Shown: positions 11,866-64,000 of the stretch, piece after piece
Layout: each line of letters begins with the position of its first letter
Numbering within the stretch: the stretch's first letter is position 1
Source of the DNA: Chrysophaeum taylorii
Lineage: Eukaryota; Sar; Pelagophyceae; Pelagomonadales; Pelagomonadaceae
Length of the DNA stretch: 64,000 nucleotides
Direction of reading: 5' to 3'
NCBI GenBank assembly: GCA_029834535.1
Contig: JAQMWT010000156.1
Coordinates: 26,156 to 90,155 of the forward strand
The notes under the pieces: generated by a model
Told to the model about the DNA's origin: nothing
The model's input: the letters and a program-made list of their open reading frames with translations, nothing else
Database searches by the model: none
Position numbers and translations under genes: made by a program

Positions 11866-12088
11866 ATGCGAACCAGTAGCGAGCCCGAACTCGCCGCGAA
11901 CGCGAACCAGTAGCGAACCCGAACTCGCCGCAAACGCGAACCAGTAGCGAACCCGAACTCGCCGCGAATGTGAACCAGTAGCGAACCCGAACTCGCCGCA
12001 AACGCGAACCGACTAATCGAACGCGAACCGGCAGCGAACGCGAACCAGTAGCGAACTCGAACTCAAAGCGAACGCGAACCCTGGGTTC
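11866..12088 (+). repeat. right subterminal 34-bp tandem array of the hAT element
   Basis: Four consecutive units start at 11871, 11905, 11939 and 11973, exactly 34 bp apart, each beginning AACCAGTAGCG and containing CCCGAACTCGCCGC. A fifth, diverged unit starts at 12007. The array lies just inside the right terminus at 12101. Exact phase and low divergence suggest recent tandem amplification of a transposase-binding motif. Confidence 0.9.
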
Positions 12089-21190: not shown

Positions 21191-22411
21191 GCGTCACCGA
21201 AGTGTGCCTGCGCGTAGTGTTGTTGCCGGGGGTTGGCGGTGGTGGCACCGCCCTTGACGTACAATAGGCCCGAGAGGATGAGACCGGTCCGCTCGCGGTG
21301 AGACGTGATAGAGGGTGCGCTGTAATGGGCGCTGCGTCTTTGCCGCCGTCGCTGCCGAGAGCGACGGGCCCCCTCCTGCGGGCCAGTGTTAATTAAGGCT
21401 AGTCCTACGAACGATGCGATGGAGGAGGCCACGTAGTGTGTCACTTCCCTCGGCGAGACGGGGTTGTCGTTTTGTTTTTAATTGCCTCCCAAGTAGACGC
21501 AACCGGCAGATCAGCGACGACTTGCGGCCCTCGTACGAGCTTTCGAAACGAGTTCCTATGCGTGACGATGATGGTTGCCCGGAACGACCGTCGGAGGGAG
21601 TCCCCGAGAGCTGCGACGGCAGGCCAGTGACATCTGCACCCGCTCAGTACAATAATCCAAGAAGAAGGTGCCACTATGGCAGAGCGTGGTGTGCCTTCCA
21701 TAACCGTCCTGTCTTTCCCCTTTTGGTCCTGACGGATCTAGACTTACTAGTGCTCGGATTGCTGCACCACAGCTCGTCGCCGGTTTGAAGTTTTTAATGG
21801 CGGCGAAAAACATGCCGCCGCCGCCGCGCAATGTAGCTCTAGCTGGCGCTTGTTTTGGACCAAGCGACATGACACGGGGGCCCGATGGGCGTGAATGCGT
21901 CTCGGCTTTTCTTCTTCGACATGTATTCCGACGCAACACGGTATGGTCCTGCCTTTGCGTCGGAGGGACTCTCATTGACAAGCTTGCTACCGGTGCTGGA
22001 TTGGGTCTCAAACAATGAGTAGGGCCTCGCGAATACGGTGAGGGCTTTTGTTGCAATGTCCGGCGTCGAGGCGTCTCAGCTCGTTGACACGATTGAGCCG
22101 AGGCAGCTCGATCACGGCTTAGTAGTTCGAGTTCCTTTCGAACGGATTTCGCCAAGGTCGAAGCGCCTGGGCTCTTCGATATGATTTTCAACACGCTTCG
22201 GTATGATAGCAACAACAACATGGCATGGGCATGTGTTGCGAAGACCGGAGCGCGGCTAGTTGTAATTCGGCTCTAGATTGCGCGAAGGTGGTGGTAGCCA
22301 GACCGCCGCAGCCCTTCTTTCGTCTTTGCGGGATCGCAGGACTCGGGTTTAAAATTTGCCGAGGTTCGTTTGAATCATCAGCACAGCTCCTGCGTCATGT
22401 TGTGGTACATC
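21191..22411. other. intergenic left of the copia element, unassigned
   Basis: Only overlapping short ORFs. A minus frame near 21290-21130 (GLILSGLLYVKGGATTANP, then GDANMNAIGLYVSRPP) looks protein-like but is unrecognised. No gene is supported. Confidence 0.3.
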
Positions 22412-22725
22412 TCCAGAGCATTTAGCATGCAGTGGTAAGTCACGTGGGAAACCATCCCGTCTCATCATGAACGTCTGGAAGTTTTTAATTCGGGGAATGA
22501 AAGGTATGTTCCCTATATCCTCAGAACACGACAGGCGGCATCTAGAACTACACGAGAAAGGGTAAGTGTATAGTGCTACATACCTCGGGACGCACTAGAC
22601 CATGATGATGAGCTTGGGCACAAATCAGAGGACTAATTGACTGTGTAAAAAGGAAGAAGAAGGGTAAGGAAGAGATCACGTTCTCAACGGACGGATAAGG
22701 GTAAGAAGCATCAGATTACTCTGCA
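22412..22725 (-). repeat. 3' LTR of copia copy 1
   Basis: Near-identical to 34847-35167, apart from small indels. On the plus strand its left end is TCCAGAG instead of TGCAGAG, one substitution in the terminal dinucleotide region. The element-sense start TGCAGAG abuts the purine tract. Confidence 0.9.
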
Positions 22726-22733
22726 CCCCCTCG
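22726..22733 (-). other. polypurine tract of copia copy 1
   Basis: Element-sense CGAGGGGG lies immediately before the 3' LTR start TGCAGAG, the position required for plus-strand priming. Confidence 0.75.
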
Positions 22734-22849
22734 AGATGTCTTAAGCGCAAGGTGCGACTATAAAACATCTCTTGAGAAAGATGATGATGAAGGAAAGAAA
22801 AAGGAGTATAAAGTCTTGATGGTCGCAGAGGTCACATACGAAGCATCAA

Positions 22850-24150
22850 GAGTATAGAAGGAGTGTCTTGAAGACTAAGTTTTGGTGGGGCTGAGAGTCG
22901 ATTTGACACTTTTGAACAGAACATTACGAAACACAGGTACAACAGACAGTGTGTTAGGATTATCTGAGGTGAGGTGGTAGATGTCGATACCGGTTCGAGG
23001 GTGTTGGAATCATCGTCAGCTTCTGCTGTAAGGTGGTGAACACCAAAAGCTGAATGATGTGGTACCATGTGAAATGTGAGTGCAAGTAGAGCATTCAGTA
23101 TAAATGGCAAAATAGAATCTAGTTGTAAGGTGCCCAGTTGGTTTTCCAAGAAGTTGGACTTGGCGAACGGATCCGTGAAGAGAGAAGAGTTTCCTGGAGC
23201 AGTTCGACTTGTTGACGCAAGGCGTCGAAATCAACAAGCGAAGCAGAAGACGTAGGATGTGACGATGGCGAAGATATCTCCAGAGTAGGGTCTGGCGTGG
23301 AGTGTAAGTAGTTTAACGACGTTTCGGTCAACACATGCTGTGTAAGTGAAGGGATTTCGCGTTTAAAAAGCGCAGAAAGTCTTGATGTTCTGCCTGAGTA
23401 TAAGTGGGGCCGAACATTACATCCCGGAGTGATGGCGGTTTTGTATCATCTGAAGATGATACGTAGTCGTCAAGATGTTGTACCCACGATTGAGCAACAG
23501 TAGTAACCACATGCTGAATTTGGATGGCTTGAACATAGCCTGAGCTTTGCGACTCTGTGTTCGAACAAGAGTCACAAGGAAATTAAGATGCCCAAGGTGC
23601 ATCTGTGTTATAAGCCGAAGATCATGTGCGAATGGCAATTGTGTGGTGGGATCTGTTGTGGCTAGAGCGGATACGGATAAGACCAAGTTAACAAATGGCG
23701 GGTGTTGAGCTAGCATACTTGTCAAAAGAGTGTATAACTCCCTTGGCAAATGATAGATGCGTATGAGGGTGGCGCGTATATGATCAGCTGAGCGCGCATC
23801 ACAAGGGAATTGGAAAGAAGTATCATTGCGAGCATATACGGTAGGTTGTCCTCGCTCAAACACAGCATAGTCCATGCTGAGGCCGTCCTGGAACGTCAGA
23901 GACTGAGGTGAGATATGCCCGGCTGGTGTCGGTGCAACCGCAGCAGCCTATGTGGTAGCGGTAGCAGTAGCAGCAGTCATGGTTTGTCGCTTTTGATGCA
24001 ACCTGGGGGAAGGTTCGGCCATGGAGAGCGAGCGTGGGACTGTCCTTCGAACGACTGGGGAGAAGCCGCGGCCACGGGAGTGCCAAGAAAAGGACATAGG
24101 CGACACTCACACGCACACAAAAAATTTGTGGCAAAAGAAGGTAGGGCGGC
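22850..24150 (-). pseudogene. extra ORF between RNase H and 3' LTR (copy 1)
   Basis: Downstream of RNase H a protein-like sequence can be read across frames. From about 23930 it reads PTPAGHISPQSLTFQDGLS, then DARSADHIRATLIRIYHLPR and AQHPPFVNLVLSVSALATT. After a frame change near 23510 it reads SWVQHLDDYVSSSDDTKPP, and then a heptad-like helix DALRQQVELLQETLL near 23200. No transmembrane segment, so an envelope role is not supported. Its mix of a helical core and coiled coil is reminiscent of a gag-like protein, but I recognise no family. Two copies of the processing-site-like word bracket it (24151 and 23309). Confidence 0.45.
23309..23329 (-). other. SLNY word, copy E
   Basis: Element-sense word containing GTCGTTAAACTA, translated LTETSLNYL, located within the extra 3' ORF. 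Confidence 0.7.
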
Positions 24151-24171
24151 TAGTTTAACGACGTTGCGGTC
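24151..24171 (-). other. SLNY word, copy D
   Basis: Element-sense word GTCGTTAAACTA directly after the RNase H C-terminus. Here the tyrosine codon reads TAG, so this copy is VTATSLN followed by a stop. Confidence 0.7.
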
Positions 24172-24188
24172 ACTGGGGTTAGGCATCT

Positions 24189-26057
24189 TCAATCATGTAG
24201 GGACTTGTCATCAGAGGCATGATGCATACCGAGTAGAGAACGAAAAGTGGAGAACTCAGCAGCAAGTGGCTTTGTAAAACCATCAGCCACGTTTAGCTTG
24301 CCGGGAACATGATGGACTCGAATTTTCTGTAGCGAGATGTACTCACGGATCTTAAACCATCTGGTCGACAGTGCCTTGGAGCGAGAGGATCCATCTGGGT
24401 TATTAGAGGTGTGAACAGCAGCAGCATTGTCAGACAAGAGAGGAGGCTTCTGATGAAGCGCATATCTTCAGCAATTGGGTTGTCATTGTCATCGAAGTCA
24501 ACAGGATCAGCGGTGTTCTCACCATTAACATTGTTGACGTAGAAGGTGGGGTTGACGACAAAGGAGAGTTCCAACAGCAGCTTGCGTAGCCAAACTGCTT
24601 CATCAGCACAAATACTGAGGGCAGTCAACTCAGCTTCGTGAGTTGAGCAGGAGACAATCGGTTGAAGCTTGCTTTTCCAACAAATAAGGCAGTTGAAAAG
24701 ATAGAAGACAAACCCGGTGGTAGATTTCCTATCTTCCTGTGCTAAGGAAGCGGCATTGTCAGCGTCGACCATGGCGACTAAGGGATCAAACTGTCCAGTG
24801 GATACATCCTGCGGTTGGTAGTCAACCACAGTAGAGAGATCAATTCGATTAGCGGAGACGGAGCGAAGGTGAGCTTCAATAGCATTACCTTTAGGATGAA
24901 ACCAGAGGCGAAGTGAGCGGTTTTCCGGCTTCCTCAGGTAGCGGAGCAGGTGTTCTAGCATCTGGACATGAACGTACGTGGGTGCATGCATACCACGCGA
25001 ACATCGGCCCAAGGCTTGCGAGAAGTCAGGTCTGCATGCCACTTGCATGAACACCAGCCTGCCAAGGAGGGTGGCAAAGTGCGTGTTGATGTACAACTCT
25101 GTTTCAGAGCTAGGAGTGCCATCTTTATACTTGAAGGACGAGGACATAGGATATTTAAGCGGAGTTAGTTGCTGCAAGACAGGATGATCAGCGAAGAGTT
25201 CATCAAGCTTGGCTTGCACATCCAGAGAAATGGATCCATCAGATGTGCGACACACGCGCATGCCTAGGAGAGTACGGACAGGTTCAAACTGCTCTACAGC
25301 ATACCGTTTGTAGAGGTCATCCTGTAACTCAGTATGAAGAGTGTCATCATTGGACACAATAACGATGTCGTCTACAGACAGACTGCATACGACGAACTTA
25401 GTATGTGCGGATACTCGAGCATATAGGCAAAAGTCCGCATACAGTCGCCTGTAGCCAAGGCTACGGAAGAAGCCGTCTATCTCTTTGTTCCAAAGAGATG
25501 GTGAAGGCCGAAGTCCATAAAGTGACTTCAGCAGTTTCGGTAGGCGTCGGCCCTTGTAGCTAGCGTCATCGGGGTCGATAAGCTTGATGGCGTCTGGTAA
25601 CTGAGCGTAGACGTTGGCATCAATGTCAGACTGAACGAAGGCGTTCGGGACGTCTGTGTGGTAGACAGGCAATTGCTTGTATGCTGCAATCGCCAGTAGT
25701 ACCCGGATTGCGGTCATTGTGGCCATTGGGCTGAAGGTGCCAAAGAGATCGGCGCCAAGGGAGGCTAGGAAGCCACGTAGCACGAGGCGAGCCTTGTGCT
25801 TAACGTATTTGCCTGCAGAGTCCGTTTTAATCTTCAGCACCATCCTGCTGTCAATAGGGCGAGAGACACCGTCGGGTAATGAAAGCTTGAAGCAGCCAAA
25901 GCGGATAATGTCGTGGAGTTCCTTGGCGATGGCCTTGAGGTAGGCATACCTGTCTTCAGGCGACATACCGTGGAGGCACTTGAGTTTGTATTCATCGATG
26001 GAAGCGTCCGCTTCTTGGACCTTGTAGTCATCAGGACCAACAGTGGCTGGTGAACAA
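24189..26057 (-). pseudogene. copia-type reverse transcriptase and RNase H (copy 1), one frameshift
   Basis: The copia reverse transcriptase starts near 25950 (FGCFKLSLPDG, IDSRMVLKIK, HKARLVLRGF) and continues through VYHTDVPNAFVQSDI, LLKSLYGLRPSPSLWNKEID and the catalytic box SLSVDDIVIVS. That box has S-V-D-D in place of the usual Y-V-D-D. RNase H follows (MVDADNAASLAQEDRKSTTG, STHEAELTALS). Near 24440 the frame shifts, and the conserved end (LLSDNAAAVHTSNN, HHVPGKLNVADGFTKPL) continues in another frame to a stop at 24189. This is the least damaged module of copy 1: about 980 codons stay open from the integrase C-terminus to the shift. Confidence 0.9.
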
Positions 26058-26078
26058 TAGTTTAACGACGTTGCGGTC
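26058..26078 (-). other. SLNY word, copy C
   Basis: Element-sense word GTCGTTAAACTA, translated STATSLNYC, between the proline-rich linker after integrase and the reverse transcriptase. Confidence 0.75.
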
Positions 26079-28235
26079 GAGGCAGTGTGCGCGACTTCGG
26101 GATAAGCGGAAACAGCGTCAGTAGGAGGGGTAGAGGAAGCTGATTCCAGTTGAATATGGATAGTAGGGTCGGCATGTAAAACTTGAGTGATATACTCTGT
26201 AGAGACCAGAAGGTATTCCACCAAGTCAGACAGAGATGCAGAATTAGCGCCAAATTCGGAGGAGTTGTGATCGATAAAGCTGGTCGGCGCCAGATACGTA
26301 AGTGCATACTGTAATGAAGAGATGCCAAAGGCAGCAGCGTGCTCAGTGAACGCAGCTAAAAGAGGCTGAGGAATGGAGCGCATAGGTGAACCATCAGCAG
26401 TTAGAAAGGTTGCGGCTGGGATGCTGGATGCGCACTTAGCGTGGGCGAAGTAACCATCGACGTGAGGGTAACGGGCTAGTAAGTCAGTGCGCAACGGGAG
26501 AAGAAGACGAGCTAACAACGCATGTTCCCCCTCTGAGCAGATAGCAGACCAGAGGATACCACCATTGATATGTAGGGCGGAGAGGGCGGGAGACATGAAC
26601 GCAAGAAAGTGGTGGCGAAGATCCCAGCGGAAATCGGTGAGTTTGCCACCAGCGGCTTTGTAAGCACCAATAGTAGACGCTTGCAGCCGGGCTTGGATAT
26701 TTTTCAAGGAGGTTGCCTTGCGGTTGTTAGGTTGTTTGGAACCTGGGACAACAATGAGGTCATCTTGTGCAAAAAGGTCTTTGTAAGAAGGAAGCAAGGG
26801 CGGCGTTGGCATAGAGCCAGAATCGTCGACAGGAACGTCGGAAGGGGGTAGAGAAGCAGGGGCAGGGGACGAAGAAGGAGCTGAGGGAGGTGGAGAGTGC
26901 CCCCTCTGAGGATGAGGTGTCCGTGTCCCCCTCTGAATGAAATGGTCTTGGATAGAAGCGTGGGGTGTGAGCGAGAAAGGCGCGGGAGGAGCGTGAGGCG
27001 GAGGAGCAAGTTCAGGATCAGGAGTAGGATGCTGGAGCATGTAGAGGAATTGCAGCTTGGACGAAACACGGATTTGTCCGTTTCCAGGGTTGAGGGCGAC
27101 GTCGGCAATATGGTCAACACGTGGGGAGACGAGCGGGTTTAGCGCGTTGGCGCAACATAATATAAGTATTTGCGTAAGTATTTGCGGCGGCACGGTTCCC
27201 ACTTGTGGTGCTCGTGGGGTTCCAATAGAAGGTAGCATTCAGCGCCAAAGATCTTGAGCATGTCATGCTGGGGAGTGCTCAGTTGATTGTAGAGTAGCTG
27301 TTGCGGACTCAGGATAGCATGGTGAATGCGCTCGAGCGTGGCGTTCGGGAGAAGGTTGTAGCTTTGGATGGTGTGTATCACCGCCCAGGGAAACATGATG
27401 GCTGGTTCCACGATCTTGGAGCCACGATAATGAGCATTAAGGAGAGAGCGAAGGCGAGTTGAGGAGGCGGAGGCGATGAAGCCGATGGCTGACTCAACTT
27501 CAAAGTTAAAGTGGTGCATGTACGGCGGGAAAGCTATGGGCTGAATGCCCTTATCGACGCGGCACGGGGAGGTAATGTGCTGGCTAAAATAGGGCTTGAA
27601 GGCATCGGAGTAGAGGGTGCGCAGGTGCACGTTGAGTTGTGTACGACAAAAGTCATACGCAAAGTCCAGAGCTTGAGTGAACTCCGTGGCGTTGGTGGTG
27701 CGTGTAAAGTACACCAAGAGAAACTTCGAGATAAGCTCTTAGAAGACAATGATATGAGTGAAGCCTCCCCATTCTGACGGAATTGTCACATAGCCGCCGT
27801 CGCACGCCCAGACTTCGCCGGCTTTGTGAGTTTTCTCAAAAGAGGGCTTGGTCGGATTGAAGTGCTTGTGCGAGTGGCGCTTGTTATGCGCGATGCAGTC
27901 GGTGCATAAGTCGCGATACGGTAGACTGAGGCAGAGAAGCCAGGGCGAGCTAGTACGTTGGGGGCCTTGGCTGCAACGTTGTCGGGGCAGTGGTGCACCC
28001 GGTGGAAGCGATTGGCTCGTTCTTTGCCGCTGAGATATTCAGCGGTCCGTGTGCGAAGGATTTGCGAGGAATGGGATGAGCGGGGATATGACGTTTGCGC
28101 CTAACATCGAACTTGAGTTCGGTGTCCAAGGCAGGAGGAGGCGGTGCGTCGTCATCCTGGTGCGCAGCAGGGTCACTTGGAGGTGCATCCTCATCATCAC
28201 AAGTAGCAAGAGTATCTTCGTAGGACGAAGACATA
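26079..28235 (-). pseudogene. integrase plus proline-rich linker (copy 1), frameshifted
   Basis: A basic segment (VRRKRHIPAHPIPRK) and an HHCP/CTDC-type zinc-binding region lie at 28100-27880. The catalytic core follows: second aspartate in LYSDAFKPYF, and glutamate in FNFEVESAIGF, spaced about 36 residues. The first aspartate (WACDGGY) falls in a frame-shifted stretch near 27800. SYNLLPNATLERI matches the end of copia integrase cores. The C-terminus (AECYLLLEPHEHHKWEPC) leads into a long proline-rich linker (26900-26700). The frame changes near 27900, 27720 and 27200. Three purine words TCAGAGGGGG lie in the linker region. Confidence 0.85.
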
Positions 28236-28256
28236 TAGTTTAACGACATTTCGGTC
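28236..28256 (-). other. SLNY word, copy B
   Basis: Element-sense word GTCGTTAAACTA, translated LTEMSLNYM, between the methyltransferase and integrase modules. The equivalent in copy 2 lies at 62035-62055. Confidence 0.8.
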
Positions 28257-30176
28257 AAGCAGTTGCTGGAGATAGAAGTCATGAAGGCCTGTGCCAAAGA
28301 CAAGGTATCTGTACTGCACGTGGTGGAGGCCGGATCAAAGGTCATGAAGGTGGATACATAGGATTTCTTCATCACGGCAGCAGCATGTTGGAAGGTAGGG
28401 TCCAACATAAGGGATTTAATATCGGCAACGAGGAGCGAGAGGTGCTTGTACAGTGTGCTGTACGTACCGGCAGGCAGAGCATTGCTGAGCATGTCGCAGC
28501 AAAGGTCGTGGCGAAGAGACAAGAGGAAAGATTCCTGTTCTTTGGTGTGGTTGTTAGGACGAATCAACTCCGGTCGAGTAGGATAGCGTAGTTTCCCGTT
28601 GCGAGGGTCGAGTAAGATAATGTTTGCATATCCTCGGACGGTGGGCAATGGAGCAAGCACGGAGTGGATTTTAGAACCTAGTTTGCGGTCACTTCCCCCA
28701 AGATACCCTATATAGCGACTATGGGATAAGTGGTGATCTTCCAGAGCAAAAATGAGAGTCCGTGTAGTCGAAAGAATTGTCGGTGGCCTTGTAGGTAAGG
28801 CGGCCAGGCATCACAAGAGAGCATCTGGACAAGAGCTTTTGTATGGTAGTGCCATAGGCGGCAGCGGAGCCAACTTGAGGAAGGGCTTGGATGATCCACA
28901 AGTAACCCATAAACGGCTCCAAATATATAGATCAGTCTCTGTCGCGGGGGACGCTGGAGGCAGCAAACGTATACGTGCTTCCAAAAGCGTCAATGGAAGC
29001 AGGATATTTGGTGGCGGCGTTTTCTATGGTGAGGTTGCCGTCAGTGTGGTGTCCGCCGGTTAGGAAGTAGGTGTTGTGTGATGTTGATGAGGTTGTAAGT
29101 AGTAACCTATGTGATGGTTGGTCAGTTTCGAAAACGGTTATGTAATAGGACACAGGGGTGGGTGAGTTAGTGTGCAATCTGGCAAACACGTTATAGAGGA
29201 TGGTAAAGGCCTTGACACGCAATGGATTAGTTGCATGTGGCAGTGGTTCCATGGAGGAGCGTTTGAAACACAGCTGATGATAAGTACACTCGGATTGAAC
29301 AGAGTGCGTGCGTTGCTCGTGAGCCTGTTGTGAGCGAAGGCGAAGAAATAACAAATTGAGTGTTTCAAGGTAAGTCATAGTAAGCTGAACAGAACCTGTG
29401 CGAGAGTAAGGTGCAAAAGTTTTAGGAACGGGGACATCGGGGGGATCGGGGAACACCCGGATCCAATCTTTGGCGATATCTTTGGATAGCCAAAGTCGTT
29501 TAGGAATGGCTTGTATGTCATCCACGATCTTAAGGAAGGGGCGTGGGTGGTGGATAGGCCATGAAAGTATATTGATTGGTCCAGTAGAATAACTGCGTGC
29601 GATGCAGATCCATCTTTCCCTATATTGGTAGTCGCCACATAGGTAGGTCGGGAACCTGTCAACAACATCAGCACAGTAATCGAGTGTGGAATAGATGAGG
29701 TTGGCCACAGTTATGTGGTCTTGATGACAGTACCTGTGGGGTGGTGTCATCTCAGCCAGTAGTACGAAGGGTTGGAGAAGTTTGATGACAGTCAGCATAC
29801 TGTCGAACAGAGAGTCGTCGAGCAGGCTGTGTAAGTCTTCGGTCTTATGCTGCTTTAGTAGATTCCTGTTAGTGCATGGAGGAGTTATCTCAATAATATC
29901 GCAATAAAATTTGCGCCTTTCCTCTGGTGAGATTTGGTAAAGGTGGTTGATAAAGGCTGGTAAAGATTCAAATAATAATACTGTAGGAAAACGGTGGCGT
30001 AACATGCGCACAAGCGTATCATCAGACTCGACAACAACTTTTACATTGATATTTAAGCCTAGGTTATTAATGGCTTGAGACAGGAACGCTGGGGTTGACA
30101 AACCAGAACAAAGTAACATGACAGAGGGTTTGCGAAGATTGGGCTCTTGTGAGAGAAACACTGGGCGAGAAAGCAT
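28257..30176 (-). pseudogene. C5-cytosine DNA methyltransferase domain carried by copia copy 1
   Basis: The frame from the ATG at 30176 gives the C5-methyltransferase motifs in canonical order and spacing. Motif I: VMLLCSGLSTPAF (residues 19-31). Motif II-like: KVVVESDD (46-53). Motif IV: DIIEITPPCTN with catalytic Cys101 (codon 29876-29874). Motif VI: FVLLAEM (137-143). Motif VIII: YRERWICIAR (185-194). After a long target-recognition region, motif IX-like LRYPTRPEL and motif X SNALPAGTYSTLYKHL appear near 28580-28450. A TGA at 28932-28934, where copy 2 has a sense codon, and a frame change near 28730 interrupt it. Motif VI has A-E-M where most members have E-N-V. Family role: transfer of a methyl group from SAM to cytosine C5. 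Catalysis is not demonstrated here. Confidence 0.8.
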
Positions 30177-31343
30177 TCATGTTAATGGTGGCGTGTTTTG
30201 CTGAACGAATTTGTTCTGTTTCCGAAGATTAAGAACCAAAGGGCGAATCCACGGGCGATCTGGTAAAACTCTCTTGAGGAGATAGTTATAATGTGCCAGT
30301 AGATCCCTATTTTCGTGGTATCGCTGGAGCGGAAATGCGAGGGAGCGCAGTTCGAGTTGCTTGTCGCGAGCGATGTTGTAGGTGAGACAAGGGAGAGCAG
30401 GCAAGTTAGATGTTACGTAATGTATGGGAATACGCACATCTTCTTTGTCTATGCGGCTCGTGACAGCGCTGAGCTTTGGCTCAGATCGATCACTGAACAC
30501 AGTGGTCAAGTTCGTCTGGTTCCACTCGAGCATGCTCAATATAGCGAGATGTCGGTTTTGCACAGGCTGAAGACATAAAGCGAAGTCAATCTTCACGTAA
30601 CCGATTTGTGGATGATCTGGTAGTGGGACACCTATGTTACGTGTTAACATCATGTGGGAGGCACGTTGTTGTCAGTTTGTGTAATGATCGGCACGTATTT
30701 GGTATACTTGTACCCTTACCCTGATCGCCGACTGCGGTTGCGATGGAGGACGGTGCCTCATGAATCCTGAGCCTTGCGAGGGCACCCGCCCTCCCGGCGT
30801 AGGTTGGCACCTATTCGCCTCCCGGGCGGGCCGGTTGGCAGCCGGAACGTTCGCAGTGGGACGGGGTATGGCCGGGGGGCGAAGACCGAAGGTTATCGGC
30901 GAGTTGGTTGTCAGTCACATCGCGGTCTCCTCGTCGCATGGCGACAAGCTTGATGGTCACTCTCCGCCGACCGACCTTTCGGCGCTCCTCGTCTACAGGC
31001 CCGTGATTCCGGACTGGCTCCTGTCGGTCCGGCCTGGCTCCCATGCTCGGGAGAGGTCTGAAGTTAGTTAGTTAGCGTATTTGGGGTCCAGTGGAATAAT
31101 ATGATTTGGAATCGCATAGTCGTAGCTGGACATTAACGATATGGTAGCACAAGAGTCAAAATATAAAGAGGAACAATGTTGGGGAACACTGTTTACCTTC
31201 ATATATTTCGTTAGAAGTGCATTTTCCGAATGCGGGCAAGTAGTGGAGAGACTGGTAGTGAAGAAGTTCTCCAGAAATAACAGGTTAGCTGGAATGATAA
31301 TCGGTTGAACAGGTGGTGATGGTTCGTCAGCCTCATCAGCCAT
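30177..31343 (-). pseudogene. copia aspartic protease region (copy 1), split by LINE-B
   Basis: The protease active site reads LYFDSCATISLMSSYD near 31155 (D-S-C-A-T in place of the usual D-S-G-A-T). The domain is cut at 31075 by a LINE-B insertion and resumes at 30653 with MMLTRNIGVPLPDHPQIGY and LAILSMLEWNQTNLTTVF. It ends at a TGA (30177-30179) followed immediately by the ATG of the methyltransferase frame in the same phase. Confidence 0.8.
30703..31075 (+). mobile_element. LINE-B/SINE-like retroposon, longest copy (373 bp)
   Basis: Flanked by CGTATTTGG on both sides (30694-30702 and 31076-31084). Plus-strand orientation, with the 3' end GAGGTCTGAAG followed by a (TTAG)n tail. It interrupts the protease of copia copy 1. 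A 103-codon frame (30760-31071) ending in GSHARERSEVS may be the C-terminal tail of the parent LINE protein. Confidence 0.85.
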
Positions 31344-31369
31344 GCCGTACTTCTCATCAAATGATGATA

Positions 31370-31555
31370 ACTAACTAACTAACTTCAGACCTCTCCCGAG
31401 CATGGGAGCCAGGCCGGACCGACAGGAGCCAGTCCGGAATCACGGGCCTGTAGACGAGGAGCGCCGAAAGGTCGGTCGGCGGAGAGTGACCATCAAGCTT
31501 GTCGCCATGCGACGAGGAGACCGCGATGTGACTGACAACCAACTCGTCAATCAGT
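31370..31555 (-). mobile_element. LINE-B, 5'-truncated (186 bp)
   Basis: Opposite orientation to the previous copy, and truncated within it. The flanks are a perfect 29-bp duplication (31341-31369 and 31556-31584) beginning CATGCCGTACTTCTC. A long variable duplication is typical of target-primed reverse transcription. Confidence 0.9.
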
Positions 31556-31811
31556 CATGCCGTACTTCTCATCAAATGATGATAGCGAGGTCTTATCGAC
31601 ATCCATTGTGGTTTCGGCTTGTGGTTGGGCCTGTGAAGATAGCGAAGACAGTAACGCTGGTGGTAACGTCGAGATGGCGGAAGCAGTAAAGAAGTTAGGC
31701 ACTATATCAGAGGGATTACCCTGTGTGTTGGAGGCATTCTTGGTATCTGTAGTAGGAGGAGTTGCCTTTGGGGTGGGAGCAGTAGCAACAGTATGATGTT
31801 GTGGCTCCACG

Positions 31812-31832
31812 TAGTTTAACGACTTTTCGGTC
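31812..31832 (-). other. SLNY word, copy A
   Basis: Element-sense word GTCGTTAAACTA, translated STEKSLNYV, in the gag region before protease. The equivalent in copy 2 lies at 59050-59070. Confidence 0.8.
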
Positions 31833-32238
31833 GAGGATAGATGAACGTCTACATCAAAAGTGATGTCTTCAGCGAACGTGAGTTGTTCGTTTAGACGAAG
31901 TAAGTCACCATTGTCCTCAGTAGATGTGGTTGATAGAATATCGGCGGATTGCAACAGAGTCTCAAATAACTTGGTGATGTTCTGTTGTAGCTGAGCCGTG
32001 ATATCATTATCTGTCACATGCTTCGTAAGTTCACTACACTGCTCTTGCCGTGTATTTATGGTGTGCTTCGTTCGGTCCAATAACTTCGTATTAGATCGAG
32101 AGGACCTGTCGAAAGTGCGAGGTTAAATTGGACGGTCATGGGACTGTCCAGCAGTTTTCTTGGTGACATAAGAATCACCAGAACGATAATACGATAAGTC
32201 GCTGCGAGAAAAAGGCTGGCGTGCATCGTTAGAGTTAC

Positions 32239-33011
32239 TCGCAGCGGCGACGAAGCCGGCGGCACGCATCGTATCGAAGGTGAAACGATGTTCGATCCAC
32301 CGAGTCGAGGGTCGAGTCTCGTTCGCTCTCGCGCGTTCTCGAGGACGTCCCGTCGGAAGAGCGAGTCGTGGCCGTGGAAGCGGGCTTTGACCGCAGACGC
32401 GTGCGCGGCAAGCCGTTGTCCATTTCGGTGGCCGGTCGCAGCGGCGACGAAGACGCCGGCACGCATCGCGCGCGTACCGAAGAGTTCGCGCGTAAAAGAG
32501 GCGAAATCGCGTCGCATTTTTGCGCGCGCCAGAACCCCGAAAGAACATCGAAAGAAAAACCCCGGCGGTGGCCGCTCGCAGCGGCGACGAAGACGCCGGC
32601 ACGCATCGTATCGAAGCGCTGGCAGACGCGTCGAGCGCCGGCGCGCCGCCCGTCGAGCGCGCCGCCGAGTTTGTATTCGGGTTGGTCGACTGGACGTCAA
32701 CCCGCGGGCGAGTCCGAGTCCGCAGTCGGAAGAGCGAGTCGTGGCCGTGGAAGCGGGCTTTGACCGCAGACGCGAGCGCGGCAAGCCGTCCGGGCATCAT
32801 CGCGGGCCCGGCGGCGCGGAGCGCCGCCCGTCGAGCGAGCCGCCGAGTTTTTTTTCGGGTTTGTCGACTGGACGTCAACCCGCGGGCGAGTCCGAGACCG
32901 CGGTCGCGACGTCGATGGCCGCTCGCAGCGGCGACGAAGCCGCCGGCACGCATCGTATCGAAGGTGAAACGATGTTCGATCCACCGAGTCGACGGTCGAG
33001 TCTCGTTCGCT
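32239..33011. mobile_element. 773-bp element with 89-bp terminal direct repeats
   Basis: Inserted in gag of copia copy 1: AGTTAC flanks both ends (32233-32238 and 33012-33017), and copy 2 has an uninterrupted sequence there. Its first and last 89 bp (32239-32327 and 32923-33011) are direct repeats with about three differences. Interior blocks also repeat: GGAAGAGCGAGTCGTGGCCG (32353 and 32728) and a 70-bp block (32648 and 32826). No coding capacity. It resembles a miniature terminal-repeat element but lacks TG...CA ends. Confidence 0.75.
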
Positions 33012-34832
33012 AGTTACGCAAGCGTCTAGCGTTGAACGTGGAGGATGTTCCAGGTTGAGAAGAAGTAATGGACGCAAGTGCGTTTGCAGTTTGAGTCAGA
33101 CTTTTGTCTGATAGATCCAGCGTGTTTGTCAGTAGTAATTTTGGTTTTGGTTGTGGTGTCAATCCTTCAACGTAAGGTTGCCAAGAAACAGGGCGTTCTA
33201 AGCGTCTTTTGTTCGACCCATTTGATACTACATTATATAAGTCTAATGCGCATTCTAAGATATAGCCAGGGTTGGTAGGGTGACACAATCGTTCAGCGTC
33301 TGGCACAGGCCGAGATGAAGATCGAGTTTCATGCATACAACACCAGTCTACCCAACCACGATCGTAACGATTGTTGCTTGTATTATCGGCATAATGCCGA
33401 TGTATCTCTTCATAAATTTTTCTACAAAGAGCACCAAAGTCGAATTGAAGGTCAGTCTCTTCCTGGTTAAGTTGGTAAGAGATTTGCCTAAACGCTAGGA
33501 CAGCTTCAATAAAGACATGGACATACCAGTTAGGATTATAGACAACAGAGTTAAAGTGCTGTTTCAGGTAGGACACATCAGTACTCGTAACAGACTCGTA
33601 GTGACTAAAGGCAATGAGCATAATGGCGCGAGCCTTGTTGGGCAAATAACTTTTGTTATACACCTCATTGATGGCGGGCCAGGCCGCAAGTGCTGGTTTT
33701 CCAACACTTTCAAAATTGATGTAAGTATGCAAGAATGTAGCACACGTGTTCTGATACGTGTGCCAATCAGCAGCAGTTAGCGAGAACATGGTAACAGGGC
33801 ACGAACGCGGGTGTCAAAAGCTAATGCATTCGGGTGCGCGCGATTTAAGATTCGTTCCTCTTCTAAGAAACGAAGATTGATTTCAGGGCGTAATGCCTTG
33901 ACTTCATTGTCGTAACAGACAGTAGCTAGCTGAGCTACTTCTGCGTCAGGTAAGTTGGGAAAGCTTCATTGGTGAAGTGCCATTCCTGATACTCAGGGGG
34001 CAATTCATCAACAGCTAAATGGAGATCAGCAGCCCAATCGGTCTTCCATTCCAGAAAAACGCGATCGAGAATTTGATTCCGGAGGATCTCGTAGTCCTTG
34101 CATGACCGAGTGTATGCTTCGTACGAGTCGTACTCGAGGAAGGCATCGGCATGACTGGACCGTTATAATTGTTGAATATGCTTAATTTGCAAGGACACCC
34201 ACCTTGTGGGTTTGAAGCTGAAATCGATTTTCTTCGTTGAGAAACTCAACTACTGGAGCTTCGAGCTTCAGTATGTCCGCCGCACCTGTGATCGCCTTGG
34301 GTGCGGCTCGTGCTGCGTGTTCTGCCATAGCAGTTGACGGGGAACCTGTGGGTTCAGTCACGCAGTTGACACTGTCTAGACATTCTACGGGGGTCTGTCT
34401 ATAGTGCACACTCATGCGTTATCGATGGAAAAACGTCTATTTGACAACTGTGCAAGCTGTGAGTCCAGAGTAGTGCCGCTAATTGTAGTCACTCATGGCA
34501 GCTGGTTATTTTGGTGCTCTCAAGGAGCTTGGTAAGTGCATAGTCATGGAATGTACGAGTGGACGTACCCAAAATATTCCATAACATGTGTGTAAGAGTA
34601 CAGATTAGCCAACTTACACACACATCAACATTAACATGACAACACGATACTATGAACAGGTGCACACAAGGTTACACGATCGCGTGTGCAAAATATGCTA
34701 TATTCAGCCCAATGGTAATGGCGTTGTATAAACAAGCGTGTTTTTGCGTGGCGAGGCTGGACTGGCGCGGTAACAGTCCAAAACCCATAGGTTACGTGCA
34801 CGTTTTTAACACATGGCTTCTCAGGGACCCGC

Positions 34833-34846
34833 CTGGGCCCATAACC
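34833..34846 (-). other. primer-binding site of copia copy 1
   Basis: Element-sense GGTTATGGGCCCAG directly follows the 5' LTR end CTCTGCA. It is complementary to the anticodon stem-loop of eukaryotic initiator tRNA-Met, as in Drosophila copia and yeast Ty5, which use a half-tRNA primer. The identical site is present in copy 2. Confidence 0.75.
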
Positions 34847-35167
34847 TGCAGAGCATTTAGCATGCAGTGGTAAGTCACCTGGGAAACCATCCCGTCTCAT
34901 CATGAACGTCTGGAAGTATTTAATTCGGGGAATGAAAGGTATGTTCCCTATATCCCCAGAACACGACAGGCGGCATCTAGAACTACTACACGAGAAAGGT
35001 TAAGTGTATAGTGCTACATACCTCGGGACGCGCTAGACCATGATGATGAGCTTGAGCACAAATCAGAGGACTAATTGACTTGTGTAGAAAGGAAGAAGAA
35101 GGGTAAGGAAGAGATCACGTTCTCAACGGACGGATAAGGGTAAGAGGCATCAGATTTTTTTTTCTGC
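34847..35167 (-). repeat. 5' LTR of copia copy 1
   Basis: 321 bp, element-sense TGCAGA...CTCTGCA, so the ends form a short inverted repeat and carry TG...CA. An A-tract near the element-sense start accounts for the extra length over the 3' LTR. Confidence 0.9.
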
Positions 35168-46283: not shown

Positions 46284-46424
46284 AGGAAAATCACGCAGTT
46301 GGGGCAGAGGCGAAGGACGAGGACTCGTTGATGACGGACCGCCACTGCGCGCGGTCTTGTGCGAAGTCGTGCAAGAGCGTCGCAGGCCGCAAACGTGTTC
46401 GTCCACGAACACGAGCGCTTCACC

Positions 46425-47080
46425 GCTTTCGAATCCTTTTCCGCCGCCACGATCGAGTCCATGCCGTGCTGGGTCCACGTCATCTTCTCCAGAATCCGCG
46501 CGCAGATCTCCACCGTCTCTGGCTTGCTGTCGTGGCGTTCCATCACCTTGGTGATGTTGACCACCATCCCCACGGTTTTCTCGATCGATTTCGGGTGGTT
46601 GCACATCTTGTCGATTAGGTGCAACGAGTGCAAAAACAACTCCTCGTCGAGGTCATCGTTTGCGGCCATCGACTCCAACACTGCGTCGACACCGCCTTCC
46701 TGGCCGATAATCGTCGCGTTCGCCGCCAGCTTGGCCAGGCATCGCGTCCCCGCCGTCAACGCGGCCTCGTTACCCTCGTGCCGCTTCATCACCTGAGGAA
46801 TGGGTCAGCATTAAAAAGCTCGATGTTTTGTATCGTCACAAATCGTTCTTTCTTTCCGTGTTGGATTCGTGATCGCATCATACCCACCTTGATTATCACG
46901 CTGGCCGCATCGACGTCGATCGCTACGTCGATGTACTCCCTCCAGTGAGGATTCGGCGGCCCGAGCGCACCGTGGTGAGCGTGTCGATCGAATACAAGGC
47001 GAGCTGCTTGAACTATACGTGCTCCATCACCGACACCACCAACGACTTGACCGCCTCCTCGGTCCACCCCATGAGTGAAG
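46425..47080 (-). pseudogene. duplicated 5' part of the ARM-WW gene
   Basis: Covers exon 1 (from MGWTEEAVKSLV), the intron (46793 to about 46888, with a 4-bp deletion and a changed 5' splice base) and the start of exon 2 (MKRHEGNEAALTAGTRCLAK to AAEKDSKAV). It then breaks off at about 46425 into unrelated sequence. Exon 1 has a frame disruption after PPNPHWREY (extra bases near 46968). Retention of the intron excludes a retrocopy. Synonymous and replacement changes are both present. Upstream (47085-47200), a further frame DLLRAFEGFIVIVKNWLNSD precedes it on the minus strand and is unassigned. Confidence 0.8.
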
Positions 47081-56555: not shown

Positions 56556-56869
56556 TGCAGAGAAATCAGCTGCTGCCTCTTACCCTTATCTGTCCGTTGA
56601 GAACGTGATCTCTTCCTTACCCTTCTTCCTTTCTACACAATCAAATAGTCCTCTGATTCGTGCCTACGCTCATCATCATGGTCTAGCGCGTCCCGAGGTA
56701 TGTAGCACTATACACTTTACCTTTCTCGTGTAGTTCTAGATGCCGCCTGTCGTGTTCGGAGGATATAGGGAACATACCTTTTCATTCCCCGAATTAAATA
56801 CTTTCAGACGTTCATGATGAGACGGGATGGTTTCCCAGGTGACTTACCACTGCTTGCTAATGCTCTGCA
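56556..56869 (+). repeat. 5' LTR of copia copy 2
   Basis: 314 bp, TGCAGAG...CTCTGCA, closely related to the two LTRs of copy 1 with scattered substitutions. Confidence 0.9.
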
Positions 56870-56883
56870 GGTTATGGGCCCAG
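56870..56883 (+). other. primer-binding site of copia copy 2
   Basis: GGTTATGGGCCCAG immediately after the LTR, identical to copy 1 and complementary to the initiator tRNA-Met anticodon arm. Confidence 0.75.
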
Positions 56884-57391
56884 GCGGGTCCCTGAGAAAC
56901 CATGTGTTAAAACGCGCGCGTAACCTATGGGTTTTGAACTGTTACCGCGCCAGTTCAGCCTCGCCACTTAAACACACTTGTAAATACAACGCCATTACCA
57001 TTGGGCTGTATATAATACGTTTTTTGCACACGTAATCGTGTAACCTTGTGTGCACCTGTTCATAGCATCGTATTGTCATGTCAATGTTGATGCGTGTGTA
57101 ATTGGCTAACCTGTACTCTTGCACACATGTTATGGAATATTTTGGGTACGTCCACTCGTACATTCCATGGCAATGCACTTAACAAGCTCCTTGAGAGCAC
57201 CAAAACTAACCAGCTGCCTGAGTGACTACGCTTAGCGACACTACTCTGGACTCACAGCTTGCACAGTCGTCAAATAGACATCTTTCCATCGAAAACGATG
57301 AGTGTACATAGACACCGATAGACAGACCCCCTTAGAATGTCTAGACAGTGTCAACTGCGTGACTGAACCCACCGGTTCCCCGTCAACTGCT
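56884..57391 (+). other. untranslated leader of copia copy 2
   Basis: About 500 bp between primer-binding site and gag without an ORF. It would hold packaging and dimerisation signals; none identifiable by eye. Confidence 0.4.
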
Positions 57392-59512: not shown

Positions 59513-60113
59513 CTCTTGTGCTACCATCTCGTTGATGTCCACTTATGATTTTGAAATACCCAATCATATAATTCCACTGGACTCCAAATACGCGCCGATT
59601 GTTATTCAGACGGCTACTGGACAACAACGTGCATCACACATGATGTTAACACGTAACATTGTTTTTCCCCTACCAGATCATCCACAAGCTGGCTATGTTA
59701 AGATCGACTTCGCTTTATGTCTTCAGCCAGTGCATGACCGACATCTCGCTATCCTGAGCATGCTCGAGTGGAACCAGACGAACCTGACCACTGTGTTCAA
59801 TGATCGAGCTGAGCCAAAGCTCAGCGCTGTCACGAGCCGCATAGACAAAGATGTACGTATACTCATACACTATGTAGCAGCTAATTTACCTGCTCTCCCT
59901 TGTCTCACTTACAACATCGCTCGCGACAAGCAACTCGAACTTCGTTCCCTCGCATTTCCCCTCAAGCGATACCATGAAAACAGGGATCTACTGGCATACT
60001 ACAACTACCTACTCCAAAGAGTTTTACCAGATCGCCCGTGGATTCGCCCTTTGGTTCTCAATCTTCGGAAACAGAACAAGTTTGTTCAGCAAAATACGCA
60101 GCCATTAACTTGA
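59460..60113 (+). pseudogene. copia protease region (copy 2)
   Basis: Frame with LYFDSCATISLMSTYDFEI (active-site D-S-C-A-T), IVIQTATGQQRASHMMLTRN and LAILSMLEWNQTNL, ending in a TGA (60111-60113) at the same place as copy 1. The protease itself appears uninterrupted here; only its connection to gag is frameshifted. Confidence 0.8.
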
Positions 60114-62034
60114 CTACTTTCACGCCCAGTGTTTCTCTCACAAGAGTCCAATCTCCGCAAACCCTCTGTCATGTGACTTTGTTCTGGTTTGTCAACTCCG
60201 GCGTTCCTGTCTCAAGCCACTAATGACTTAGGCTTAAATATCAATGTAAAAGTTGTTGTTGAGTCTGATGATATGCTTGTTCGTATGTTACGCGCCACCG
60301 TTTTCCTACTGTATTATTATTTGAATCTCTCCCCGCCTTTATTAACCATCTTCACCTAATCTCACCAGAGGAAAGGCGCACATTCTATTGTGATATAATT
60401 GAGATCACTCCTCCCTGCACAAACAGGAATTTACTAAAACAGCATAAGACAGAAGACTTACACAGCCTGCTGGACGATTCTCTTTTCGACAGCATGTTGT
60501 CTGTCATCAAGCTACTCCAGCCCTTGGTACTACTGGCTGAGATGACGCCTCCACATAAGTACTGTCATCAAGACCACATCACAGTGGCCAACCTTATCCA
60601 TACTACACTTGATTACTGTGTCGATGTTGTTGATAGGTTCCCGACCTACCTCTGTGGCGACTACCAATCTAGAGAAAGATGGATATGCATCGCACGCAGA
60701 TATTCTACTGGACCAATTAAACTATTGTCGTGGCCCATCCTCCATCCACGCCCCTTCCTAAAGATCGTGGATGATCTACAAGTTATTCCCAAGCGCCTTT
60801 GGCTACCTAAACACGTATCCAAAGACTGGATCCGGGTGTTCCCCGATCCTCCATATATCCCCGTTCCTAAAACGTTTGCACCTTACTCTCGCACAGGTTC
60901 TGCTCAGCTTACTATGGCTGACCTTGAATCCCTCAATATGTTACTGCTTCGCCTTCACTCACAACAGGCTCACGAGCAACGTACTCACTCTGTTCAATCC
61001 GAGTGTACTTATCATCAGTTGTGCTTTAAACGCTCCTCTATGGAGCCGCTACCCAATGCAACGCACCCTATACACGTCAAGGTTTTTACAATCCTCTATA
61101 ACTTGTTTGCCAGCTTACACACTAACTCACCCACTCCTGTGTCCTATTACATAACCGTTTTCGAAACTAACCAACCGTCACACAGGTTATTACTTACAAC
61201 CTCATCAACATCACACAACTCCTACTTCTTAACTGGTGGCCACCATTCCGACGGCAACCTCACCATAGAGAACGCCACCACCAAATATCAGACTTCCATC
61301 AACGCTTTTGGAAGCACGTATACGTTCACTGCTTCCGACATTCCCCGCGACCGGGACAGGTCCATATGTTTGGAGCCGTTTATGGGTTACTTGTGGATAG
61401 TCCAAGCCCTTTCCCAAGTTGGCTCCGCTGCCACCTATGGCACCGCCATACAAAAACTCTTGTCCAGATGCTCTCTTGTGATGCCTGGCTGCCTTACCTA
61501 CAAGGCCACCGACAACTCTTTCGATTACAAGGATTCTCATTTTGCTCTGGAAGATCACCACCTATCTCATAGTCGCTATATAGGGTACCTTCGTGGAAGT
61601 GACCGCAAACTCGGCTCTAAAATCCACTCCATGCTTGCTCCATTGCCAACCGTCCGAGGGTATGCCAATATTATTTTACTCGACCCTCGCAACGGGAAAT
61701 TACGCTACCCCACTCGACCGGAGTTGATTCGTGCTAACAACCACACCAAACAACAGGAATCTTTCCTCTTGTCTCTACGCCATGACCTTTGCTGTGACAT
61801 GCTCAGCAATGCTCTGCCTGCCGGTACGTACAGCACTCTGTACAAGCACCTTTCGCTCCTCGTTGCCGATATTAAATCCCTTATGTTGGACCCTACCTTC
61901 CAACATACTGCTGCCGTGACGAAGAAATCCTATGTATCCAATTTCATGACCATTGATCAAGCTTCCACCACGTGCAGCACAGATACCTTGTCTTTGGCAC
62001 AAGCTTTTATGATGTCTATTTCCAGCAACTGCTT
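60114..62034 (+). pseudogene. C5-cytosine methyltransferase domain of copia copy 2
   Basis: Same motif order as copy 1. Motif I is spoiled by a TGA where copy 1 has leucine, just before LCSGLST, and a frameshift lies near 60290. From about 60360 the frame is open to 62227: motif IV IEITPPCTN (catalytic Cys codon 60416-60418), motif VI LVLLAEM, motif VIII SRERWICIAR, then the long recognition region, LRYPTRPEL and SNALPAGTYSTLYKHL (about 61690-61850). This copy is intact exactly where copy 1 carries its TGA. The protein conservation between copies outside lesions suggests past selection. Confidence 0.8.
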
Positions 62035-62055: not shown

Positions 62056-63024
62056 TATATCTTCGTCCTACGAAGATACTCTCGCTACTCGTGATGATGA
62101 GGATGCACCTCCAAGTGACCCTGCTGCGCACCAGGATGACGACGCACCGCCTTCCTGCCTTAGACACCGAACTCAAGTTCGATGTTCGGCGCAAACGGCA
62201 TATTCCCGCTCATCCCATTCCTCGTAAGTCCTCGCACACGGATCCACCGAATATCTCAATGCCAAAGAACGTGCCATTCGCTTCCACCGGTGCATCACTG
62301 CCCCGACAACGTCGCTGCCAAGGCCCCCAACGTACTTGCTCGCCCTGGATTCTCTGCTTCTGACATACCATATCGCGACTTATGCACCGACTGCATCGCA
62401 CACAACAAGCGCCACCCGCACAAGCATTTCAATGCGACCAAGCCTTCTTTTGAGCAAACTCACAAAGCCGGCGAAGTCTGGGCGTGCGACGGCGGCTATG
62501 TGACCATCCCATCCGAATGGGGAGGCTTCACACATATCATCGTCTTCAAGGAACTCATTTCGAAATTTCTCTTGGTGTACTTTACACGCACCACCAACGC
62601 CACGGAGTTCACTCAAGCTCTGGATTTTGTGTATGACTTCTGTCGTACACAACTCAACGTGCACATGCGCACCCTCTACTCCGATGCCTTCAAGCCCTAC
62701 TTTAGCCAGCACATTACCCTCCCGTACCGCGTCGATAAGGGCATTCAACTCATCGCCTTCCCGCCGTACATGCACCACTTTAACTTTGAAGTTGAGTCTG
62801 CCATCGGTTTCATCGCCTCCGCCTCCTCAACTCGCCTTCGTTCTCTCCTTAATGCTCACTATCGTGGCGCCAAGATCGTGGAACCAGCCATCATGTTCCC
62901 GTGGGCGGTGATACACACCGTTCAAAGCTACAACCTTCTCCCGAACGCCACGCTCGAGCGCATACTCATGCTATCTGAGTCCGCAACAGCTACTCTACAA
63001 CCAACTCAATCACTCCCAACATGA
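62056..63024 (+). pseudogene. integrase of copia copy 2
   Basis: After an acidic spacer (DEDAPPSDPAAHQDDDAPP) a frame change near 62160-62280 leads to the zinc region (VHHCPDN, LCTDC) and a catalytic core complete in one frame: first aspartate in EVWACDGGYVTI, second in LYSDAFKPYF, glutamate in FNFEVESAIGF. It ends near LLPNATLERI, where a single-base change shifts the frame (about 62965). Copia-type integrases insert the cDNA with 5-bp target duplications, which matches the copy 1 flanks. Confidence 0.85.
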
Positions 63025-64000
63025 TATGCTCAAGATTTTTGGCGCTGAATGTTACCTTCTATTGGAGGCCCATGAACACCACAAGTGGGAACCGTGCCGC
63101 CGCAAATATCTGTATCTCTGTTGCGCCAACGCGCAAAACCCGCTCGTCTCCCCACGCGTCGACCATCTCGCTGACGTCGTCCTCAACCCTGAAAACGGAC
63201 AAATTCGTGTTTCGTCCAAGCTGCAATTCCTCTACATGCTGCAGCATCCTACTCCTGATCCTGAACTAGCTCCTCCGCCTCACGCTTCCCCCGCGCCTTT
63301 CTCGCTCACACCCCACACCGCTATCCAAGACCATGTCATTCAGAGGGGGACAACGGACTCCTCATCCTCAGAGGGGGCACTCCCCACCTCCTTCAGCTCC
63401 TTCTTCTTCGCCCCTACTCCGCCTCTTCTCCCTCTTCTAACACTCTCCCGCCGACGAATCTGGCTCTATGTCACCGCCGCCCTTGCTTCCTTCTTACAAA
63501 GACCTTTTGCACAAGATGCTCATTCTTGTCCCAGGTTCCAAACAGCCAACACCCGCAAGGCCACTTCTATGAAAACTATCCGAGCCCGGTTACAAGCGTC
63601 CACTATTGGTGCTTACAAAGCCGCTGGTGGCAAACTCGCCGATTTCCGCTGGGATCTTCGCCACCACTTTCTTACGTTCAAGTCTCCCGCCCTCCCGCCC
63701 TCTCCGCCCTTCATCTCAATGGGGTATCCCTGCTCTATCTGCTCAGAGGGGGAACATGCGTTGTTAGCTCGTCTTCTTCTCCCGTTGCGCACTGACTTAT
63801 TTGCCCGCTACCCGCACGTCGATGGTTACTTCGCCCACGCCAAGTGCGCATCCAGCATCCCAGCTGCAACCTTTTTAACTGCTGATGGTTCACCTGCGTG
63901 CCCCATTCCTCAGCCCCTTTTATCTGCGTTCACTGAACACGCTGCTGCCATTGGCACTTCTTCCTTACAATATGCGCTTACGTACCTGGCGCCCGACACA
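63025..64000 (+). pseudogene. integrase C-terminus and proline-rich linker (copy 2), continues past window
   Basis: Broken frames read VDHLADVVLNPENGQIRVSS and LQFLYMLQHPTPDPELAPPP, then a proline/serine-rich linker and the KTIRARLQASTIGAYKAAGG segment, all parallel to copy 1 (27120-26300). TCAGAGGGGG occurs at 63340, 63368 and 63743, as in copy 1. The RT is not reached. Confidence 0.7.

Follow-up and report, generated by a model that had tools for sequence, protein, structure and literature searches.

Copia-type LTR retrotransposons in the genome of Chrysophaeum taylorii carry, between the protease and the integrase, a domain that is almost certainly a C5 cytosine methyltransferase. Copia elements, among the commonest retrotransposon groups, thereby join the elements that bear such an enzyme. 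The place of the divergent enzyme is fixed across families of one genome and polyproteins of two other data sources, and a close enzyme is present in a third. The first-pass annotation had proposed that a copia element acquired a C5 methyltransferase in this lineage; the domain is upheld by profiles, motifs, genome copies and relatives, and the limit to this lineage may be too narrow, because polyproteins of the same order occur in ENA and JGI data and a close enzyme in MMETSP data.

Element copies in the window

The window, i.e. the whole 64,000-nucleotide stretch analysed, covers contig positions 26156-90155 of a host assembly of 70.8 Mb in 697 contigs. The elements in it are LTR retrotransposons, and the polymerase of copy 1 is copia-type (RVT_2). 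Copy 1 spans 22411-35156 on the minus strand, with other repeats inserted within it, and its LTRs of about 310 bp share 95.8% identity; copy 2 is inverted relative to copy 1, begins at 56556 and extends past the window end. The traits of Ty1/copia elements (Pseudoviridae) found here are the RVT_2 polymerase, an integrase upstream of the reverse transcriptase (RT), and LTRs with a tRNA primer site. Priming from an internal stretch of tRNA-Met is habitual for copia and Ty5, and the primer site can pair, at 14 of 15 bases, with the anticodon arm encoded by a tRNA-Met(CAT) gene of this genome. The features of both copies are as follows.

22411..22717, minus: 3' LTR of copy 1, 95.8% identity to the 5' LTR
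24296..27238, minus: RT and RNase H frame of copy 1 (RVT_2 E 1.7e-37; VLKIK 25826-25843, VDD 25358-25378)
27142..28010, minus: integrase region of copy 1, in several frames (HH 27990-28010, D 27793-27810, D 27598-27612)
28460..28588, minus: methyltransferase motifs IX and X of copy 1 (frame 27953-28810)
28460-28489, minus: motif X of copy 1, LSNALP, in another frame than I-VIII
28565-28588, minus: motif IX of copy 1, RYPTRPEL, in another frame than I-VIII
28935..30176, minus: methyltransferase motifs I-VIII and start of the long putative target-recognition region of copy 1 (414-aa frame)
29610-29627, minus: motif VIII of copy 1, QYRERW (414-aa frame)
29739-29762, minus: motif VI of copy 1, LLAEM (414-aa frame)
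29868-29885, minus: motif IV of copy 1, TPPC (414-aa frame)
30093-30116, minus: motif I of copy 1, LLCSGLST (414-aa frame)
30177..30179, minus: UGA stop of copy 1 between the protease and methyltransferase frames, in phase
31134..31160, minus: protease active-site motif of copy 1, DSCA
34832..34846, minus: primer-binding site of copy 1, directly inside the 5' LTR
34846..35156, minus: 5' LTR of copy 1
56556..56870, plus: 5' LTR of copy 2
56870..56884, plus: primer-binding site of copy 2
60111..60113, plus: UGA ahead of the methyltransferase of copy 2
60114..61831, plus: methyltransferase region of copy 2, motifs I to X, frame-broken near motif I
60407-60424, 60530-60553 and 60665-60682, plus: motifs IV, VI and VIII of copy 2, in one frame with IX and X
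61703-61726 and 61802-61831, plus: motifs IX and X of copy 2, in one frame with IV-VIII
62479..64000, plus: integrase and downstream region of copy 2, continuing beyond the window

An SH3-like match in the integrase region of copy 1 falls under the Pfam cut-off. Motifs I, IV, VI, VIII and X, as first reported, follow one another between protease and integrase in both copies, and motif IX, absent from that earlier list, precedes X in both. The reported spacings of about 75, 41 and 45 residues agree with the open frame of L062, a window-type copy elsewhere in the genome (77 residues from I to IV, 41 from IV to VI, 45 from VI to VIII). The claim that the element carries a methyltransferase holds for open frames elsewhere in the genome, but both window copies are frame-broken remnants; motif I of copy 2 (CSGLST) lies in a separate frame from IV-X, with a stop immediately ahead. 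The genome search for intact copies recovered the open frames of L062 (1690 aa) and of L061 (1801 aa), the latter from a sister family.

The protease motif reads DSCA in copy 2 as well (59508-59534), DSGA in the polyprotein P0002 described below and DGGA in L061; the usual copia form is DSGA. Near the protease of copy 1 lies an inserted repeat (30783-31075, 31368-31551 and 47428-47723), the copies of which are 98-99% identical and include an inverted pair. Arginine-rich open frames overlap on both strands at 32056-33029 inside copy 1, perhaps as part of an inserted repeat.

Identity of the domain

Taken alone, the window family (family A) is at or below significance. The window protein matches no Pfam family at E<=1, and its match to a phage DNA-methyltransferase family of PHROGs reaches 11.3 bits (E 0.15). 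Six of eight family A cores match PF00145 at E 0.076-0.17 (11.7-12.9 bits; cut-off 22); the other two cores, and two longer stretches scanned alongside, give no PF00145 match at E<=1, and the full stretches of L062 and L034 give none at E<=10. Nine family A entries, including two from the window, were compared with phrog_116 (DNA methyltransferase): seven match at E 0.0016-0.17, and two are without a match. A profile of ten cores from family A and the related protein P0001, with family B left out, returned 15 PDB matches at E<=10, no methyltransferase among them, and matched the host DNMT2-type protein with a probability of 0.9%. The open frame of L062 nevertheless runs in the order methyltransferase-integrase-RT, with rve at residues 784-866 (E 0.0076, 16.9 bits; cut-off 32.6), SH3_retrovirus at 968-1007 (under cut-off) and RVT_2 at 1431-1651 (E 7.7e-42).

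The window family is identified as a methyltransferase because its relatives match, i.e. family B, P0001, P0003 and a joint profile. A genome scan with PF00145, in which 123 of 474 candidates were scored, gave 57 matches, two of them host-like (L001, L002). Of the 55 others, the 28 examined (L003-L030) all come from a single sister element, here called family B, with a best E of 1.1e-10, and all 28 keep the LPC cysteine; the remaining 27 were assigned to family B by match range only. All four family B proteins scanned score 32.8-35.3 bits against the PF00145 cut-off of 22. In L061 a single frame, ending at the stretch edge, has the order protease-methyltransferase-integrase-RT, and contains the protease motif, PF00145 (E 9.8e-8), rve (E 0.0055, under cut-off) and RVT_2 (E 1.3e-17). 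Family B is homologous to the window protein (phmmer best E 5.2e-7 in a 30-sequence set), and motifs IX and X are common to both. One family B protein compared with PDB sequences found no match at E<=1.

A protein search over 5.8 billion sequences added relatives from other data, with P0001 and P0002 taken from about 8000 scored candidates. P0001, an MMETSP transcript of 392 aa, encodes a close enzyme on its own, outside any element context; it shares 47% identity with the window core and matches phrog_116 (E 3e-8) and, under the cut-off of 22, PF00145 (E 4.4e-4, 20.2 bits). Two polyproteins were found from family B: P0002 (ENA, 2396 aa), which matches phrog_363 (E 8.6e-4) and has no PF00145 match, and P0003 (JGI metagenome, 2292 aa), which holds PF00145 above the cut-off (E 3.9e-8, 33.5 bits), rve under it (E 3.6e-4) and RVT_2 (E 5.8e-42) in a single protein. 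P0001 and P0002 gave no match in NCBIfam, and relatives sought in viral contigs and prokaryote genomes were not found. A joint profile of eight cores (A, B, P0001, P0002) matched 39 PDB sequences at E<=1, every one bearing the name of a C5 or DNMT-type enzyme (M.HhaI 2.2e-5, DNMT2 4.4e-4), and the four matches of a looser joint alignment at E<=0.1 are likewise C5 enzymes. The profile search proposed in the first-pass annotation thus succeeded for family B and P0003, but not for the window protein itself. That the window protein lacks a Pfam match and that the A-only profile is negative would suit a chance occurrence of motifs in an ordinary copia spacer, yet family B and P0003 exceed the Pfam cut-off at the same polyprotein place and B is homologous to A (5.2e-7; IX, X), and we consider such chance matching very improbable.

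Conservation of the motifs points the same way. Among the best-scoring 30 of 102 rows of family A, the window copy included, all 30 retain the motif IV cysteine, the motif VI glutamate and the second arginine of motif VIII; conservation of the PPC cysteine had been set as a check at the outset. No aligned row of A, A2 (a subfamily of A), B, P0001, P0002 or P0003 (a 20-row and a 6-row alignment) departs from the Pro-Cys in IV, the Glu in VI or the Arg in VIII. All four polyproteins have a motif IX/X pair, assigned by eye (RYPTRPEL/SNALP, RYATLNE/ANAVP, RYMTIRD/ANAVP, RYLTVAE/ANAVP; 34-35 residues between IX and X), and a phrog_116 match over residues 291-657 of P0003 supports its assignment. 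The distance from VIII to IX, a putative target-recognition region, is 277-344 residues in all four. Motif VI reads AEM in family A and MEM in A2, and AEM, MEM or NEM replaces ENV everywhere except family B; motif I departs from the usual FxGxG. Compared with M.HhaI, DNMT2 and DNMT1 (PF00145), the element enzymes share the motif order, the Pro-Cys, the Glu, QxRER in family A and a distant IX-X pair, but differ in the length of the VIII-IX gap, the divergent motif I and, family B apart, the altered motif VI.

Structure prediction, suggested earlier as a check for a SAM-binding Rossmann core, gave a divided answer. The window-core model (pLDDT 63.5, pTM 0.63) retrieves DNMT2, MET1 and DNMT1 at Foldseek ranks 1-6, but with TM-scores of only about 0.4, and in a VIA-align comparison Rossmann dehydrogenases rank level with DNMT1. 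The full-length model of the 632-aa region has a pLDDT of 30.

Expression, copy number and selection

In family A the protease and methyltransferase frames are in phase with a single stop between them. Among 30 copies (L031-L060), two of them unreadable at the junction, this stop is UGA in 25 of the 28 readable, UGG in two and lost in one. The codon after the 25 UGA stops varies (AUG 12, CUA 7, AUA 3, others 3); UGA-CUA is a leaky stop context. From this arrangement we read the family A UGA as a programmed stop that would set the ratio of gag-protease to methyltransferase-Pol, and as a candidate readthrough site. The family A enzyme, as the first domain after the UGA, would then be made only with Pol, via readthrough of the stop codon or re-initiation. 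Family B differs: its gag and Pol overlap in different frames (one copy, L061 1400-3133 and 3097-8499), and the enzyme sits inside the Pol frame.

Methyltransferase matches occur at no fewer than 236 places in the genome, comprising at least 101 matched by the window protein, at least 80 more only by P0001 and at least 55 of family B. All four places fetched from the P0001-only group (L064-L067) belong to subfamily A2, with 54-55% identity to the window core and the motifs TSPC and MEM. Of 150 RT matches scored (1670 candidates), 43 are preceded on their own strand, at a distance of 2.5-5.1 kb, by a methyltransferase match, whereas a mirrored control gave one; the other scored RT matches may be without the domain, or their domain may fall outside the matches listed.

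The methyltransferase core is under strong purifying selection. The median dN/dS over 30 copies is 0.10 in the core (427 of 435 pairs) and 0.22 in the adjoining part (426 of 435 pairs), and over 17 stop-free copies 0.07 and 0.21 (132 of 136 pairs each), where pairs with dS up to 0.05 are excluded and the pairs, having history in common, are not independent.

Proposed role, known systems and origin

We propose a series of steps for the action of the enzyme. Motifs I to VIII would form the Rossmann core, followed by a target-recognition region of about 280-340 residues and then by IX and X. Because the domain order and the reading frame put the enzyme inside Pol, it would be expected to be packaged into the particle alongside RT and integrase. 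Its simplest use would be to methylate the double-stranded cDNA or the fresh insertion. A DNMT5-type enzyme of the host would copy the mark, DNMT5 being a maintenance-type family from work in Cryptococcus, and the element would benefit by protection of its cDNA or by restraint of new copies. We lean slightly towards this explanation as a whole, i.e. a packaged copia methyltransferase that marks cDNA or insertion and a host enzyme that maintains the mark; that the enzyme methylates element cDNA or a fresh insertion we place a little short of an even chance. The parasite may thus write the very mark that hosts use for silencing such elements, and the question of why a transposon would do so becomes testable with elements that have and lack the domain in one host.

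The host complement bears on these steps. A DNMT5-type gene (L068:1068-6101, plus strand, contig C621) has PF00145 (E 5.6e-17) and SNF2 (E 2e-13) in a 1678-aa open frame that reaches the locus end, and a DNMT2-like gene (L001:1498-2577, plus strand, contig C634) has the motif PPCQPHTRQ and PF00145 at E 4.1e-19. Among the 30 of 57 PF00145 matches examined there was no further C5 methyltransferase outside the elements, a count that intron-split genes could escape. A single shared methylation system, with the retrotransposon as the de novo writer and the host as maintainer only, can be entertained, although we regard it as unlikely; if it were true, each new insertion could have its methylation started by enzymes from the 236 or more copia-type methyltransferase places.

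The CpG comparisons leave the cDNA-methylation reading unsupported by decay, as C/T differences at third positions are 0.177 before G and 0.171-0.213 otherwise. G/A differences in fourfold codons are higher after C (0.26 against 0.05-0.11), with codon families differing among themselves, and the observed/expected CpG ratio is 0.92-1.05 in the elements and 1.28-1.30 in the window flanks, a comparison confounded by base composition. The missing C/T signal would suit a domain that methylates RNA, for example the element transcript or the tRNA primer. DNMT2, a C5 enzyme acting on tRNA, is among the better matches of the joint profile, a DNMT2-type gene is present in the genome (L001), and an RNA substrate is at hand in the tRNA-Met anticodon arm that the primer site matches. 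However, the best matches of single proteins fall to families of DNA methyltransferases (PHROGs 363 and 116, with TIGR00675 under cut-off), in libraries that hold few RNA enzymes, and the element core profile is weak to the host DNMT2-type protein (0.6 bits) and better to the DNMT5-type (15.8 bits), so that we judge an RNA substrate distinctly improbable. Somewhat less so, while still unlikely, is a domain that keeps the fold and SAM site for DNA or RNA binding or as a chaperone, with catalysis lost in some families: the divergent motif I, AEM (A) or MEM (A2) in place of ENV and a window family under the Pfam threshold would suit it, but Pro-Cys (IV), Glu (VI) and Arg (VIII) do not vary among the aligned rows, and the core has a dN/dS of 0.10 compared with 0.22 in the adjoining part. 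Modification of host DNA in trans, shaping the host epigenome in favour of the element, draws on the same number of places (at least 236) and on non-element C5 genes that, among the 30 of 57 matches examined, amount to one DNMT2-type and one DNMT5-type; translation as part of Pol, however, limits free enzyme, and we give this reading little credence. Methylation of cDNA or the fresh insertion is also the use proposed for DIRS elements in the accessible text of de Mendoza and colleagues, 2018 (PMC5890265).

In that text, the methyltransferase-bearing elements are LINE, DIRS and Gypsy, the copia elements of Symbiodinium are without any DNMT domain, and two SymbioDIRS enzymes methylate CG de novo in yeast, the LINE and Gypsy enzymes being inconclusive there (PMC5890265). 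One close likeness is KnitGypsy-Dnmt3 of Klebsormidium nitens, an LTR element whose Pol likewise includes a C5 methyltransferase under purifying selection; it has the Gypsy class, DIRS-like repeats and a DNMT3 enzyme (PMC5890265), whereas the elements here have RVT_2, ordinary LTRs, the order protease-methyltransferase-integrase-RT and an enzyme assigned to the C5 type in general. SymbioDIRS-Dnmt3 and SymbioLINE-Dnmt are also C5 methyltransferases borne in large numbers by the retrotransposons of a single protist genome, but on LINE and tyrosine-recombinase elements (PMC5890265) and not on copia. A 2025 paper mentions in passing that 'LTR Copia and DIRS' elements house some DNMT3 enzymes (PMC12344493), thus naming copia as we do; the 2018 paper that it cites says Gypsy in its accessible text (PMC5890265). 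The CoDi copia elements of diatoms are similarly copia elements of microalgae and targets of host methylation, but a methyltransferase domain is unmentioned in the accessible text of PMC9998398 and PMC3145265. Within the accessible open-licence literature, supplements excluded, this architecture was not found described for any copia element. What is new relative to the accessible account of 2018 (PMC5890265) is the copia superfamily, the long target-recognition region and the conserved in-frame UGA before the enzyme.

A possible independent capture, as first suggested, is supported at the level of the element class (LINE, DIRS and Gypsy in the 2018 cases), while the tree bearing on the ancestry of the enzyme took in only two host enzymes. 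In this 12-row tree the ten element enzymes group against the two host enzymes with support 83/80, on long branches, which says little about origin. Descent as a recent copy of a host gene was dropped, the core profile scoring 15.8 bits to the DNMT5-type and 0.6 to the DNMT2-type. One capture before these copia families split would fit the sequences, because the placement and the long VIII-IX gap are common to all four polyproteins and the pairing of P0002 and P0003 is consistent with it; shared placement and enzyme layout would fit an old capture, long kept under selection. P0002 and P0003 are mutually closest, with 49% identity in the methyltransferase, 46% in the integrase and 67% in RT. 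L062 and L061 have the lowest methyltransferase identity (19%), yet 52% in RT (incomplete in L061), against 39-43% for L062 to P0002 and P0003. Agreement of enzyme and RT as proof of a single capture was therefore only partly borne out, as this pair is discordant, and exchange of the methyltransferase domain between elements is possible.

Elsewhere in the window, a direct duplication (43470-44041 and 46414-46966) has 93-97% identity with about 2.9 kb between its halves, and 17/34-bp tandem units form two related arrays at 6436-6531 and 11861-12080.
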